Shown here: positions 33,345 through 43,335 of the stretch, piece after piece
Position numbering within the stretch: position 1 is the first letter of the stretch
Layout of the letters: each line of letters starts with the position of its first letter
Assembly: GCF_024347135.1 (NCBI RefSeq)
Contig: NZ_AP024908.1
Coordinates: 1-64,000, forward strand
DNA length: 64,000 nucleotides
DNA from: Vibrio spartinae
GTDB taxonomy: Bacteria; Pseudomonadota; Gammaproteobacteria; Enterobacterales; Vibrionaceae
Direction of reading: 5' to 3'
Notes under the pieces: model-generated
What the model saw: only the letters and a program-made list of their open reading frames with translations
The model's database searches: none
What the model was told of the DNA's origin: nothing
Translations under genes and position numbers: made by a program

Positions 33345-33423
33345 GGATTGTTACCGCGTTCGCGGGCAAAGCCTGAAAGATGCAACTGACCGTATGGTGG
33401 GGCTGTTCTTTCGGGTTTTTTTT
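33345..33423 (+). promoter_or_regulatory. BglG-type ribonucleic antiterminator and terminator
   Basis: The segment 33345-33374 reads GGATTGTTACCGCG, then TTCGCGGGCAAAGCCT, nearly the E. coli bgl RAT (GGATTGTTACTGC...GCAGGCAAAACCT), with the inner stem CCGC/GCGG intact. Its end overlaps a terminator CCTGAAAGA (33372) / TCTTTCGGG (33407) followed by T8. Binding of a dephospho/activated BglG-family protein would block the terminator and let transcription reach the GH1 gene 224 bp downstream. Confidence 0.85.
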
Positions 33424-33628: not shown

Positions 33629-35053
<1,425 letters not shown>

Positions 35054-35273: not shown

Positions 35274-36308
35274 TCAGTGCCCGTATTTGGTCGCTTCCAT
35301 GGTATTCAAGAGGCGATGGATCAGATAAGTGGCAATCAATGTGGCAACGATGGCAAATAAGATACTACTAATCCGGTATAACGCATTAAATGTTAAGTCA
35401 CTGGTCGGGGTCAGGTACTGACCGAATAAAATCCCTAGCGTGGTTAATCCGCCGAATCCAACCCCGGATCCGTTTGCTTCTTTCATGTGCAGATAGCCAA
35501 ATAACATCGTTCCGATCCACAGCAATGGGATAACCAAGATTAACTGGTTCGAGCGATCATATAACAGGATTTGACAGCTCAGGCCAAAAACAACGCCCAA
35601 AATTGTCCCCATCGCCCTTTTTCTGGCATAGCCTAAAGCACCGTTCCAGTTCATCGGAAACAGGAGTAACAGGCTGGTGGACTGCGCTGACATCGAATCA
35701 CTGAGGTTGAAGGTCTGGAATACAAGAAACGATAACGTCGCGACACCGGTTCCTAACAGCGTCTCATGGCGAAAACGATGAGAGCGCTTGGGTTCTGCCG
35801 GTGGTGGCGGCGGTTGTCTGGGGGCGACATCAGGAATGAGATAGTGCATGAGATATGCAATCCCAATCGCAAGGAAATTCGCGGCCATATTACAACTAAT
35901 CATGTCGTTAATATCGGTGGTTGAATAACTGGCGAAATGCAGCATGATACTTAGGTTCAACACACAGTTTGCACCGAACAGGAATAACGGTCCGCGAGCC
36001 ATACAGGCAAATTTGGAGAGAAACAGTAACAACGCAATGATTGTCATTATTCCCGGATGTCCGCCGAATAAACCTGCCAGCAAGCCGACTTCCAGAGTGC
36101 AGATCACTGCCGACGCAATCATTTGTCGGGCAATATGTCCGTTGAGTACCGGGATCATCCCCAGCAATAGCATCGGAACTACGGTAAAAAAGACCCCAAA
36201 GTTCCAGCCAAAGTATTTATTAAAAGCAAAACCAAGGGTCGCGCCAGTTGCAATCCGTAAACACTGCCGGAGATCGTTATCATTGAGAGGATGAGTCCAT
36301 AAGCGCAT
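35274..36308 (-). CDS. DUF2955/FUSC-like inner-membrane protein
   Basis: 344 aa with two blocks of membrane helices separated by a proline-rich loop (RQPPPPPAEPKR, about 173-184). It is a DUF2955 member related to the fusaric-acid-resistance/aromatic-acid efflux proteins. It follows an HlyD-like gene and a MarR gene, as in aromatic-acid or drug efflux operons, and probably forms the inner-membrane part of the pump. The substrate is unknown. The gap to the HlyD gene is 13 bp. Confidence 0.8.
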   Translation of the reverse strand: MRLWTHPLNDNDLRQCLRIATGATLGFAFNKYFGWNFGVFFTVVPMLLLGMIPVLNGHIARQMIASAVICTLEVGLLAGLFGGHPGIMTIIALLLFLSKFACMARGPLFLFGANCVLNLSIMLHFASYSTTDINDMISCNMAANFLAIGIAYLMHYLIPDVAPRQPPPPPAEPKRSHRFRHETLLGTGVATLSFLVFQTFNLSDSMSAQSTSLLLLFPMNWNGALGYARKRAMGTILGVVFGLSCQILLYDRSNQLILVIPLLWIGTMLFGYLHMKEANGSGVGFGGLTTLGILFGQYLTPTSDLTFNALYRISSILFAIVATLIATYLIHRLLNTMEATKYGH

Positions 36309-36321
36309 CTTGTTCTCCGGA

Positions 36322-37380
36322 TCAGTAAATGTAGTGTAATAAGCTCAGCGCATGAATTTGCATCTGTGCAAACCAAGCAAACACGGGTTGTCGGGGGATC
36401 AGTTGTACCGTGGCTCTGGCACCGGATGGCAGATTTTCTGGCAGTGGCTGATTGAGCGAGAGATGGAGTCGGATCCGCTGCGCATCTCTGACCCAACGAT
36501 TCGAACTTGTCGGAGAGGCAAGAGAGCCGTTGGCATCAAACTGACCACTACTGACACCGGCATCAATGGTACTTACCTTTGCGGTATAAAGGCGACCCGG
36601 ATCGCGATCAAAGGTAATCAGTGCCGGCGTATTATGGCTAAAATTGCGCAGACTCTTTTCTCTGAAATCTGCAATGATATCCAGTTTTTTATCGACCAGT
36701 GCAATCAATGGTGTGCCTTTATTGGCGTAACTTCCGACCATGAGTTGTAGGTTGGTGATAATGCCAGCATGTTCTGCTTTGACTTGGGTATAAGAGAGAT
36801 TCAGTGCAGCTTGCTGAAGGTGGTTCTGCGCCATCTTCACCGTGATATTCTCATGCGTTGTCGTGCCGCGACGAACCCGTAGCTCTTTCAGTCTGGCTTG
36901 TGCGGCCATCAGGTTTGCTTTTGCCGCAGTCGCATTACTCAATGCATCATCGCGTTGTTGCTGGGAAACACCATTACGAGCGAAGAGTTTATCCAGCCGT
37001 TTGGCTTCCCGGACTTTTTGGTTAAACACGATTTGATTGGCTTCGGCCCCTGCTTGTGCAGCCGCAATTGAAGCATCTAATTGTTGATTGTCCTGAATGG
37101 CTTTTTCCAAATCGAATTTTGCTTGTTCGACTGCAAGCTGATAGGGCGCCGGATCGATCTCAAACAAGAGGTCGCCTTGCTGAACCTGTTGATTATTATG
37201 GACATAAACTTGATTGATTTGTCCGCTGACTCTGGGGGCAATTTTAGTAATGACACGAGTTGCCATCGCCTGTGGTGTCAGTGGCATCACTGTGTCTGCC
37301 AGTAAAAAATAGGCAAAAAGAACGATGAAAAACACACTGGCGTATTTCACCCAGCGTGCAAATTTTTGATCAGGGGTCAT
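36322..37380 (-). CDS. HlyD/EmrA-type membrane fusion protein
   Basis: 352-aa periplasmic adaptor with one N-terminal membrane helix (about 14-32), lipoyl half motifs (VSGQINQVYVHNNQQVQQGD, about 50-69), a coiled coil (about 85-180) and a beta-barrel part. It probably pairs with the DUF2955 protein to export small molecules. It lies between the marR-like and DUF2955 genes in the same direction. Confidence 0.86.
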   Translation of the reverse strand: MTPDQKFARWVKYASVFFIVLFAYFLLADTVMPLTPQAMATRVITKIAPRVSGQINQVYVHNNQQVQQGDLLFEIDPAPYQLAVEQAKFDLEKAIQDNQQLDASIAAAQAGAEANQIVFNQKVREAKRLDKLFARNGVSQQQRDDALSNATAAKANLMAAQARLKELRVRRGTTTHENITVKMAQNHLQQAALNLSYTQVKAEHAGIITNLQLMVGSYANKGTPLIALVDKKLDIIADFREKSLRNFSHNTPALITFDRDPGRLYTAKVSTIDAGVSSGQFDANGSLASPTSSNRWVRDAQRIRLHLSLNQPLPENLPSGARATVQLIPRQPVFAWFAQMQIHALSLLHYIY

Positions 37381-37401
37381 CTTGTGAAACTTCCTTCGTT
37401 A

Positions 37402-37878
37402 TTATTCTGGCTGGTGCAGGTTTTCCTGAGCATTATGGGCAATTTTTTCTAATGTTTGACTCAGTTGGTTTAGCTCGGCTTCGTCAATATTGATGAGCAT
37501 ACAATGTCTGACGTGTAGCACTCTTTCTTCTATTTGTTTTAAAAGTTCTTTACCACTGTCCGTTAAATGGACAATTCGGGCGCGCTTGTCTTGTGGACAA
37601 CAGTGGCGCTCGATAAGGTTTTGCTCTTCAAGCAGCTTTAAGGTTCTCATCAATGAACCGAGTTCGATTTCAAGTGCATCAGCCAGTATTTTTTGGCTGA
37701 CACTGTCACCGAGACGTTGGAGCTTCCACAGGGCAACCCAACGACTTTGGGTTAATCCGAGTGGTGTAAGCGCCTGATTTGCGACGCTCTTCCACAAACG
37801 AGCCGCTCGGGCGAGTTGTTCGGCAAGCGATAAGTTCTTCAAAATAGTCAGATCATCGACCATGGTGGATTGTCTCAA
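37402..37878 (-). CDS. MarR-family regulator
   Basis: 158-aa winged-helix regulator of the MarR type. The recognition helix region is ISQKILADALEIELGSLMRT-like sequence (about 58-77) and the wing contains CCPQDKRARIVHLTDSGK (about 92-109). As first gene of the efflux operon, it probably represses the operon until a phenolic or similar ligand binds. The 5' gap to the esterase gene is about 535 bp and the two are divergent. Confidence 0.87.
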   Translation of the reverse strand: MRQSTMVDDLTILKNLSLAEQLARAARLWKSVANQALTPLGLTQSRWVALWKLQRLGDSVSQKILADALEIELGSLMRTLKLLEEQNLIERHCCPQDKRARIVHLTDSGKELLKQIEERVLHVRHCMLINIDEAELNQLSQTLEKIAHNAQENLHQPE

Positions 37879-38067
37879 TTACTAAGCGTGCTCAGCAATA
37901 TATAGTAGTTAGCAGGCTAAGTAAATATTTTTGACTTAGGTCACAGAAATTAATGTCAAATCTATTGGTAGACAATTGTACTTACTGGTGTTCTGTTATC
38001 GACTTCACAGGGTGAGCGGGAAACATTTGAGTTAGGGAGTGTATCTCATTAGATTAGTTTCATATTT

Positions 38068-38177
38068 GGATTGTTACTGTGGTTACTCAATAATCTGTGC
38101 TTGATGAGATTATGTGAGAATGATGCAGGCAAAACCTAGCTTTCCTGAAGCAATGCTTCGGGGGCTAGGTTTTTTTA
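38068..38177 (+). promoter_or_regulatory. Expanded BglG-type antiterminator and terminator before the esterase gene
   Basis: The two conserved halves of a bgl-type RAT are present, GGATTGTTACTG (38068-38079) and CAGGCAAAACCT (38126-38137), but the usual 4-6-nt loop is replaced by about 46 nt. That insert holds its own hairpin, CTCAATAATCT / AGATTATGTGAG. The right half overlaps a strong terminator AACCTAGC / GCTAGGTT (38133-38171), with nested CCTGAAGC / GCTTCGGG and a T tract. The carboxylesterase gene starts about 238 bp downstream. Confidence 0.72.
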
Positions 38178-38414
38178 TGGATATTCGGTTTTCATGGAAG
38201 CTTGGTTTTTATCAAGAAAGGTTTTCATCAAGACAGGTTTCTATGGGGATATGTTGCCAGTTGCGATGCCACGGTTTTGGTCCGAATTGAATCACAACAA
38301 GATTATTAACGTGTGATATGAACAGCACGTCATCTGAATTCGGTCAGTCTGATGGTTGAGTGTAGACACCGAGGATGAGTTGATATCCAATCGATGAAAC
38401 GGAGAATACTTCAA

Positions 38415-40010
38415 ATGAAAAAGAACCGCATTTATATGCTGGCACTCGCACTTGTGGGGTTGAGCTGTAATGTGTCTGCACATGAGAATACGATAGTGGA
38501 AATTAACGATGGCCTCATGCAAGGGGTTCACAATGGTTCGGTTATTTCTTACAAAGGAATCCCTTATGCGCAGCCTCCCGTCGGAGACTTACGCTGGCGA
38601 GCACCCCAACCCGTAACGGCTTGGGATGGTGTTTTACAAGCGAAAGATTATGGCAGTGACTGTATGCAAGTCCCTTTCCCGGGCGATGCAGCACCACTCA
38701 CTGGCACGCTGTCTGAAAATTGCCTGTTTTTGAACGTTTGGCAACCCGCAGAGCCAAACCGGACATTACGTCCTGTGATGGTATGGATCCACGGTGGTGG
38801 TTTTGTCAATGGTGGATCTTCCGCTGCAAATTATGACGGGACGTCTTTTGCTCAAAACGGAATTGTCATGGTCAGTATCAACTATCGTTTGGGACGTTTT
38901 GGCTTTTTTGCCCATCCGGCTTTGACAGCAGCAAATCAAGATCCGGCGCTGGGCAATTACGGACTGATGGATCAGATTGCGGCATTAAAATGGGTGCAAG
39001 ACAATATCGCTCATTTTGGCGGGGATCCAAATCAGGTCACGGTTGTTGGTGAATCTGCCGGAGGCTTGTCGATTCATGGACTTTTAACGTCACCACTGGC
39101 TGAAAACTTATTTGGGCGAGCGATTATTCAATCGGGAGCTGGTCGTCGTAATTTCAGCGACCGCTATCTGAGCCATGAGAATAAATTTGGTCAAACCTCT
39201 GCTGAAACCGCTGGATTGCTATTTGCACAGAAGTTTCATATTGAGGGGCAAGGGCAAGGTGCATTGGACGCTTTGCGGTCGCTACCCACTGAAGATGTTG
39301 TCGGTGATTTGAGCATGATGAATATGGATAGTGAGACATACACCGGCCCGATGATTGATGGCACATTGATCACTGATCATCCTCAGAATATATACAACGC
39401 TGGGCGAGGGCTGTCTGTACCACTCCTGTTGGGGGCGACAACCTCAGAAATTCCCGTTTCATCTCCCTTTACCGAATGGCCTGAAACCATAGATCAAGCA
39501 TTGTCTATTTTCGGTCCGGTGAGGGCTAAAATTGCGAAGTATGCCTATGGTGTCACCCCAGATACTCCTGTCACGAAGCTGGTTCTGGATATCATCCGAG
39601 ATACGGGGATGGTTGAGCCTGCTCGCTTTGTGATGAAAGCTGCTGAGTTGCAGGGGCAATCCGTTTATGGTTATCGCTTTGGTTATATCGCTGACGTCTT
39701 GAAACCAACCTCGGAAGGGGCGGACCATGCCAGTGATATTGTTTACGCATTCAATACCTTGCACGCTCAATATCATGATGCAGTGACTGACGCTGATCAG
39801 GCAATGGCTGAGATGATGCATCAGTATTGGGTTAACTTTATTCGCAATGGCAATCCGAATGGTCCTGATGTGCCGCATTGGTCTCATTACCGGAGTTGGG
39901 CGGACAATCTGATGATGTTCTCCAATGAGGGCGCAGACCAATCCGGTATGGTTTTTGACCCTTGGAAAGTTCGCCTGATGTTGATTGAGTCAATCCAGCC
40001 ATCGTTGTAA
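38415..40010 (+). CDS. Secreted type-B carboxylesterase
   Basis: 531-aa alpha/beta hydrolase of the carboxylesterase/lipase type B family. A signal peptide ends near NVSAHE. The oxyanion region is HGGGF (about 127-131), the nucleophile Ser is in GESAGG (about 213) and a His fits in GADHASD (about 437). It hydrolyses carboxylic esters, probably in the periplasm or outside; the substrate is unknown. The frame starts earlier at 38394, but ATG at 38415 has GGAGA upstream and gives a proper signal peptide. The bgl-type leader suggests co-regulation with aryl- or acyl-glucoside use. Confidence 0.85.
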   Translation: MKKNRIYMLALALVGLSCNVSAHENTIVEINDGLMQGVHNGSVISYKGIPYAQPPVGDLRWRAPQPVTAWDGVLQAKDYGSDCMQVPFPGDAAPLTGTLSENCLFLNVWQPAEPNRTLRPVMVWIHGGGFVNGGSSAANYDGTSFAQNGIVMVSINYRLGRFGFFAHPALTAANQDPALGNYGLMDQIAALKWVQDNIAHFGGDPNQVTVVGESAGGLSIHGLLTSPLAENLFGRAIIQSGAGRRNFSDRYLSHENKFGQTSAETAGLLFAQKFHIEGQGQGALDALRSLPTEDVVGDLSMMNMDSETYTGPMIDGTLITDHPQNIYNAGRGLSVPLLLGATTSEIPVSSPFTEWPETIDQALSIFGPVRAKIAKYAYGVTPDTPVTKLVLDIIRDTGMVEPARFVMKAAELQGQSVYGYRFGYIADVLKPTSEGADHASDIVYAFNTLHAQYHDAVTDADQAMAEMMHQYWVNFIRNGNPNGPDVPHWSHYRSWADNLMMFSNEGADQSGMVFDPWKVRLMLIESIQPSL

Positions 40011-42229: not shown

Positions 42230-42886
42230 TTAGGCAGATTTCAGATGTTTCTGAAGCAGGTAGGTTGCGATGTCTTCAATGGTCAGCACCGGTAAATCAT
42301 GTTGATGACTAAAACGGATAATCTCCGGTGTTTGTGCCATCGTGCCATCTTCATTGGTCACTTCACATAAAATGCCCGCGGGTTGTAGTCCTGCCAGTTT
42401 CATCAGCTCAACCGTCCCTTCGGTATGACCCCGGCGGACTAACACGCCACCATCCCGGGCTCGCAGTGGGAACACATGCCCGGGGCGGGCCAAATCATCG
42501 CCTTTTGTTTCCGGGTGAACGGCTGTTTTGATCGTTGTCACCCGATCTGCGGCAGAAACGCCGGTGGTTACGCCGACTTTCGCTTCAATACTCACGGTAA
42601 ATGCTGTTTGGTTCTGACTGTTGTTTATTTGAACCATTGGCGGCAATTCCAGACGATCTGCATCTTTTTCTGTTAAGCACAGACAAACAATCCCACTGCA
42701 TTCACGGATCATGAGTGCCATTTGTGATGGGGTCAGATGTTCTGCTGAATAAATAAGATCGCCTTCATTTTCCCGGTCTTCATCGTCAAGCAGTAAGACG
42801 CCTTTTCCTTCTCTTAATGCTTGCAATGCGGTTTCGACGCGATGTATCGGGTCACCGAATTCGGCGAGTAAATTTAACTGATTCAT
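42230..42886 (-). CDS. ribB: 3,4-dihydroxy-2-butanone 4-phosphate synthase
   Basis: Makes the four-carbon precursor of riboflavin from ribulose 5-phosphate. The 218-aa stand-alone RibB has the acidic active-site loop [11 protein letters not shown] (about 35-45) and the conserved [17 protein letters not shown] (about 150-166). It is monocistronic. An FMN riboswitch in its leader shows control by flavin level. Confidence 0.95.
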
Positions 42887-43008
42887 GGTTACCTCTATGT
42901 CGTTGTTCTACCAGAATCAGGGCAAATATGAGGGATGATAAATCACAGACACAACTTCCCCACTGCGGGAAGCCCGGTACAGGAAAGCGTTGTGACTATA
43001 CTTAATTC

Positions 43009-43148
43009 TCTCTCATCCGGACTATAACCGTCGGCTCTGGCTTGGGACCAGATCTGCTTGACCCTGATATAGATACATATCAGGCGCTCGTGGGCTCGTC
43101 AGACTTATTTCTGACCTACCACCGGTGGGGAATTCCGCCCCGCCCTGA
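43009..43148 (-). promoter_or_regulatory. FMN riboswitch (RFN element)
   Basis: On the minus strand it begins AGGGCGGGGCGGAATTCCCC, then ACCGGTGGTA, and ends in GCCGACGGTTATAGTCCGGA, followed by TGAGAGAG. These are the invariant blocks of the RFN aptamer. It lies 123 nt upstream of ribB. The spacer holds a CTTTCC / GGGGAAG-type hairpin that may be the expression platform; without a clear T-run, control may be at translation. Confidence 0.95.
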
Positions 43149-43335
43149 GAATATTAAACATACCGTACAGAAAATGAATGAATAGATTCAACCAATACGG
43201 CGCTCATATCATAAACTTGCCTAAGGTAAAAAAGAAGTGTCTTTTGACCGATGTAAACACGAGTGTGATTTCATGTCGTGTTTGTGTCCGGAGAAGTGGA
43301 TGCAAATTGAGTCGGTGATCACATGGGGAGCAAGC

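Follow-up and report, generated by a model that had tools for sequence, protein, structure and literature searches.

The leader of an exported carboxylesterase gene, taken here as a member of the beta-glucoside regulon, very probably carries an ordinary BglG-dependent antiterminator (RAT) in which a self-folding arm stands in place of the apical loop. The window analysed (64,000 nt) opens the second contig in the 5.19-Mb genome of Vibrio spartinae (G000). Judged by its sequence, the element is a real, conserved and probably functional RAT with an enlarged apical arm. It lies among the following features.

33345..33373, + strand: canonical RAT of 29 nt, with its own terminator behind
33647..35053, + strand: GH1 6-phospho-beta-glucosidase behind the canonical RAT (PF00232; NF007356 626.5 bits, cut-off 623)
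35274-37878, - strand: MarR-type regulator, HlyD-type and DUF2955/FUSC-type membrane genes, between the GH1 and esterase genes
37930..37945, no strand assigned: putative CRP-like palindrome (TTTGA-N6-TCACA) in the stretch that separates the RAT from the divergent marR-like gene
38027..38055, + strand: candidate sigma-70 promoter (by eye), TTGAGT-17-TAGATT, with 12 nt between its end and the RAT
38068..38083, + strand: RAT 5' half GGATTGTTACTG with four further invariant bases, identical in 6/6 genomes
38080..38125, + strand: inserted apical arm of 46 nt in place of the usual 4-12 nt (46 nt in 5/6 genomes, 47 nt in 1/6)
38086..38096, + strand: 5' strand of the arm helix, CTCAATAATCT (11 pairs; 61/66 cells paired over six genomes)
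38107..38118, + strand: 3' strand of the arm helix, AGATTATGTGAG, with one bulged G
38122..38136, + strand: RAT 3' half with three further invariant bases ahead, GATGCAGGCAAAACC, identical in 6/6 genomes
38131..38176, + strand: intrinsic terminator AAAACCTAGC...GCTAGGTTTTTTT, which takes in the last six bases of the RAT
38415..40010, + strand: exported carboxylesterase (PF00135), signal peptide and start judged by eye

The enlarged RAT and its terminator

Both halves of the RAT are intact, GGATTGTTACTG at 38068-38079 and CAGGCAAAACCT at 38126-38137, each being the sole zero-mismatch match in the 64-kb window, and a spacer of 46 nt separates them. The conserved patterns of the halves, GGATTGTTACYG and CRGGCAAARCC, are both matched exactly. 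RATs are typically about 29-31 nt long, a property outside the binding core, and the whole element (38068-38136, 69 nt) exceeds this length. Folded as a 70-mer, it forms two asymmetric internal loops below and the inserted hairpin above (-15.2 kcal/mol), and this fold and the exact matches agree with the original prediction of intact bgl RAT halves split by about 46 nt with a hairpin of their own. The 70-mer fold is not significant by itself (z -1.32), because 21 of 200 shuffles fold equally well; when RAT and terminator are folded together z is -4.12 and none of 200 shuffles is as good.

The strong terminator that had been predicted to overlap the RAT does begin within the 3' half, at 38131, and the two structures are mutually exclusive, as is characteristic of RATs. 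A pattern scan of 37000-39500 gave only one terminator-like site and shuffles averaged 2.9, so that the scan alone proves nothing. A GGTTTTT terminator able to pair with the RAT end was present in all 30 of the Vibrio RAT leaders checked, from 41 found. The candidate sigma-70 promoter at 38027..38055 is missing from the promoter scan output; by eye, its TTGAGT is invariant and its second element reads TA[GA]ATT in 6/6 aligned leaders, and the CRP-like half-sites are likewise unchanged in all six around a variable spacer.

The predicted terminated leader transcript is about 115 nt long and ends in the strong terminator. In the predicted growing transcript of the window the arm is formed from about 38122 onward, whether or not the terminator is present. 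The CUGU/GCAG stem next to it is formed at most transcript lengths and is partly lost once, at 38164; the lower part of the RAT, by contrast, yields to the terminator. In the other subclade the fold of the full leader retains the arm under a different closing stem. In these models the arm thus resembles a closed cap over the RAT. Pairing of the RAT 5' half with AATAATCT, transient during transcription of the window, was set aside because this sequence is missing from the other subclade. By eye, the GGT/GAT junction does not match the pattern of a k-turn, and a k-turn there was rejected. Derivation of the arm from a genomic repeat was also rejected, as a DNA search with the leader returned itself and three short matches (E 0.09-0.56).

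Conservation and covariation of the arm

The esterase was searched for in a sample of 196 genomes of the genus, 84 of which had some match at E 0.001. In six genomes, including that of the window, the esterase is at least 86% identical, and all six have the enlarged RAT at the same place. The reversed control pattern had no match in 227 genus genomes, and this, together with retention in 6/6 close relatives, shows that the element is not due to chance. By exact pattern an enlarged RAT was found in only seven of 329 genomes of the family, the six and G142.

The six genomes form two subclades and therefore amount to few independent observations. Across both, the extended RAT halves (31 positions) are identical. 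Identity between the subclades is 38% in the arm, 86% in the terminator and 41% in the leader 3' of the terminator; the arm has thus diverged as far as this last part of the leader. Its length has nevertheless stayed at 46-47 nt, and the helix is retained despite the sequence change: 61 of the 66 cells hold standard pairs, and sliding one strand by 1-3 positions lowers the number to 22-40. At five pairs both sides have changed at least once, in four cases between the subclades and, for P9, also within one. For the pairing count the register was chosen by hand, following the fold of each subclade; from the raw MAFFT alignment RNAalifold gave only two pairs with both-sided changes and a weak covariation term (-0.94). 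Comparison of relatives for compensatory changes, which had been proposed with the original prediction, thus came out in its favour, with the element kept in 6/6 and both-sided changes in the arm that are clearer in the hand register than in RNAalifold.

Arm shuffles for each of the six sequences gave z from -2.69 to +0.09, with -1.39 (p 0.10) for the window and 0.09 for G155. A hairpin with two internal loops between the halves is predicted in 6/6 RAT stretches folded alone. It is absent from the minimum-energy fold of longer leaders with the terminator, as expected without protein. In the longer leaders of G084, G131 and G195 the arm is kept and closed by a TTGCAT/ATGCAG stem rather than by the RAT core, and in G155 the minimum-energy fold loses the arm helix.

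Other RATs and the BglG-type proteins

The canonical RAT at 33345..33373, in the same window, was absent from the original prediction. A third RAT of the same type stands before a beta-glucoside EIIBC gene on contig 1. With the spacer limited to 30 nt a pattern search finds two RATs in the genome, and a wider, looser pattern finds three, the enlarged one included; RAT searches that require a short loop thus miss the enlarged class. Two more divergent RATs were found by reading, in the leaders of the bglG gene at 946 kb of contig 1 (C1:946 kb) and of a PTS operon on C2.

Two CAT-PRD proteins are encoded in the genome, both above the NCBIfam LicT cut-off. The gene for the first (C1:946 kb) adjoins a beta-glucoside EIIBCA gene, and that for the second adjoins another EIIBCA gene and another GH1 gene. 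The C1:946-kb protein matches the LicT CAT domain of 1L1C, which we take to be an RNA complex, with E 8.9e-15, and is 88% identical to its G131 orthologue over the CAT stretch compared. Its own leader has a diverged RAT (GGATTGCGAATGC...), which folds like a RAT in the window genome, and the variant form GGATTGC[GT]AATGC...GCATGCAAAACC occurs in the bglG leader of all six genomes (L001, L151, L152, L153, L156, L157). Because this leader RAT has diverged, reading of the TTAC-type core by the C1:946-kb protein is an assumption.

At least one CAT domain was found in each of nine chosen genomes (9/9). G131 has four exact RATs, one enlarged, and G142 has canonical and enlarged RATs, each genome with a single CAT protein (PF03123). 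If the RATs work, the same protein would read both kinds, and from these sequences a single CAT protein probably does so in G131 and G142.

The esterase and its neighbourhood

The esterase reading frame opens at 38394, and the ATG at 38415, after CGGAG, is the likelier start. The protein matches PF00135 with 375.3 bits (cut-off 27) and a GESAGG motif was read in its sequence; with the signal peptide recognised by eye, this bears out the original assignment of the gene behind the RAT to a secreted carboxylesterase. Homologues of 51-52% identity are found after a RAT, a GH1 gene and a porin gene in G098 and G102, and after a RAT and a GH1 gene in G142, in all three within a cluster with bglG. 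The G102 porin matches LamB and the G098 porin is 90% identical to it. The esterase matches of G098 and G102 in the genome search contain one TAA, yet the frames are open for 529 aa. The presence of these homologues inside bgl clusters places the esterase in the beta-glucoside regulon.

The order of the MarR-type, HlyD-type and DUF2955/FUSC-type genes matches that of similar frames in G131, and the genes at 35274-37878 may perhaps serve the export of phenolic acids. As a guess from the neighbourhood, the locus could be a set for acylated phenolic glucosides, with glucoside transport and hydrolysis, ester cleavage and phenolic acid export.

Enlarged arms in other bacteria

RATs were counted with an exact pattern for both halves and a purine required inside the arm; variant RATs were left uncounted because both halves had to match exactly. 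Of the 41 RATs counted in the genus, 34 have an arm of 4-11 nt. In a sample across the order (89 RATs, the three of the window genome being left out) 78 arms are of 5-12 nt and 11 are of at least 15 nt. The earlier statement that known RATs have a small loop therefore applies to most but not all of them, and the enlarged arm is not unique, since arms of at least 13 nt recur in Enterobacterales, Bacillota and spirochaetes.

Genome contigs were scanned for arms of 13-73 nt, which disposed of the idea that the arm is unique to the esterase locus. The scan returned 69 stretches, and six were dropped by eye: L037, L067 and L090 as tandem short RATs, L053 and L095 for lack of a T run, and L064 for lack of GGTTTT after the match. 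This left 63 stretches with 65 sites. A T run follows within 110 nt at all 65, with an exact GGTTTT at 50 (by pattern only), and arms of at least 25 nt occur at 18, all in Pseudomonadota or Bacillota. The kept sites and five further Vibrio loci gave 60 distinct arms; 57 of these fold better than their own shuffle mean (mean z -1.77; 21 at p <=0.05), and as many are related they are not independent trials. Arm length elsewhere ranges from 13 to 66 nt and no common sequence was noticed by eye. The genes downstream, judged by sequence except for one Gilliamella GH3 gene that was profiled, are mostly bglG-, EII-, GH1- or GH3-like:

Serratia: arms of 43-58 nt, before bglG-like genes
Gilliamella: arms of 18-32 nt, before GH3 genes
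Pectobacterium, Brenneria and others: arms of 14-21 nt, before EII genes
Erwinia: arms of 19-20 nt, before a gene for an exported protein, likely a porin by sequence
Clostridium (two RATs): arms of 66 nt, before EII genes
Saccharibacillus: arm of 30 nt, before a bglG-like gene
Spirochaetes (three records): arms of 17-22 nt

These enlarged RATs share with that of the esterase the intact halves, a T run behind and arms on average more self-complementary than shuffles. They differ from it in arm length and sequence and in having bgl-type genes downstream rather than an esterase. A link of enlarged arms with exported proteins was rejected, as Serratia, Pectobacterium and others have bglG- or EII-like genes behind them, and exported enzymes in Vibrio also stand behind arms of 4-9 nt.

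The leaders of homologous exported GH3 genes have an arm of 6 nt in G098 and G141 (L109 and L131) and of 40 nt in G142 (L119:1501-1563), which points to replacement at one site. The G142 GH3 piece is 77% identical to that of G098 over 168 aa, and its frame is open for just 195 codons before an opposite-strand reading frame begins, presumably an IS200-type transposase. Natural pairs such as these leaders show where the RNA tolerates an insertion, which is relevant to the use of RATs as genetic parts.

Comparison with known systems

With the RATs of BglG, LicT and SacY the esterase leader shares both halves, the hairpin with two internal loops, the overlapping terminator and the presence of CAT-PRD proteins in the genome. 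It differs from them in having a 46-nt self-folding arm instead of a short loop; PMC12628678 gives N6 or N7 loops for two bgl RATs of C. acetobutylicum. The Rfam family RF03530 (bglG-cis-reg) also combines a RAT-like segment with a terminator in the leader, but its match to the window reaches only 22.9 bits, far below the gathering score of 80, and the RAT 5' half is unused. At the gathering score RF03530 had no match in 18 loci with RATs or the variant RAT, and no Rfam RAT family matched the window or those 18 loci. A genome search for RATs was reportedly made by Gordon et al. in 2015. Among the PMC titles and abstract starts listed, a collection that most subscription papers fall outside, none dealt with RATs with enlarged arms.

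In B. subtilis, sacB and licS encode exported enzymes behind RATs. The esterase leader has in common with these genes and with hylA of E. faecalis that a secreted enzyme is under antitermination control, and differs in the class of the enzyme. PMC9981650 places hylA behind a NagY-controlled RAT, and with this precedent a secreted enzyme in that position is no oddity in itself, a point on which the original prediction needs correction. Broad RAT regulons are also known: according to PMC12502629, the NagY regulon has 26 targets, 23 of them with a putative RAT.

Proposed mechanism and alternatives

From the core, its overlap with the terminator, the conservation, the arm pairing, the recurrence elsewhere and the CAT proteins, all read from sequence, we infer binding of a BglG-type protein, the direction of control, the inducer and the choice of protein as follows. 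In the presence of a PTS beta-glucoside a BglG-type protein would be active as a dimer, most likely the C1:946-kb one next to the beta-glucoside EIIBCA. The dimer would bind the internal loops of the RAT core and hold the core, the AAAACC segment could then not start the terminator, and the esterase would be transcribed; when PTS beta-glucosides are absent, transcription would stop near 38176. Known antiterminator proteins contact their RNA at the internal loops rather than at the apical loop, as in the LicT-RNA structure. The self-folding 46-nt arm would keep the halves together and leave the protein-binding core untouched, so that the RAT would tolerate it. Canonical antitermination explains everything except the arm.

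Alternatively, the arm might act as a further control element, recognised by RNase III, by another RNA-binding protein or by an sRNA, which would give the esterase leader two inputs. Its steady length and the retention of its helix while the sequence changes speak for such a role, and PMC12502629 reports that RNase III cuts the stem common to antiterminator and terminator in E. faecalis nagY, so that RAT hairpins can be processed. However, an arm mostly unconserved between subclades argues against a sequence-specific partner, the arms of other lineages differ widely in length (13 to 66 nt) and have no common sequence noticed by eye, and the helix is just some 11 pairs with a bulge or mismatch; we consider a second element unlikely. 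A broader proposal holds that the RAT apical loop is an open insertion site where self-folding arms have been installed repeatedly in three phyla, and that the arm of the Vibrio esterase leader has in addition been kept because its structure brings a further input to antitermination, through processing, folding kinetics or another ligand. Taken as a whole it appears improbable.

A length so far beyond the usual range would also suit a RAT relic in which the insertion has abolished BglG binding and left the terminator constitutive or leaky. This is very unlikely, given that all 31 core positions agree across the six genomes although the intervening arm is down to 38% identity, and that enlarged arms precede intact bgl-type genes elsewhere. 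The predicted transcript of about 115 nt with its strong terminator could, lastly, be mainly a stable small RNA acting in trans, with the RAT halves incidental, but the conserved bases are those of the RAT and the arm, which would bear a potential seed, is the part that changes, so this explanation is extremely doubtful. An ordinary RAT with a tolerated arm is the reading we prefer.

Other RAT-led genes in related vibrios

The esterase thus ties an exported enzyme to antitermination leaders in vibrios. Related vibrios have such leaders, with a canonical RAT and a terminator that overlaps it, before genes for exported sulfatases, an anaerobic sulfatase maturase, a dCache sensor and a rhamnosidase as well. 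L106, L112 and L126 have a RAT-led anaerobic sulfatase maturase (TIGR03942 468.8 bits, cut-off 349.45), L113, L127 and L122 exported sulfatases, L118, L125 and L128 a dCache sensor protein that is probably a chemoreceptor, and L124 the N-terminus of an alpha-L-rhamnosidase. L106, L113, L118, L122 and L124 were profiled and the remaining sulfatase, maturase and sensor loci were judged by sequence. By title and abstract, the PMC matches listed for BglG, sulfatase and Vibrio included no paper on the subject. In two vibrios (L116, L120) a RAT leads an exported protein of 379 aa, which in L116 has no Pfam or NCBIfam match. The window also contains an ordinary FMN riboswitch (43001-43156, - strand, 104.7 bits), and the gene behind it (42230-42886) resembles ribB by sequence.
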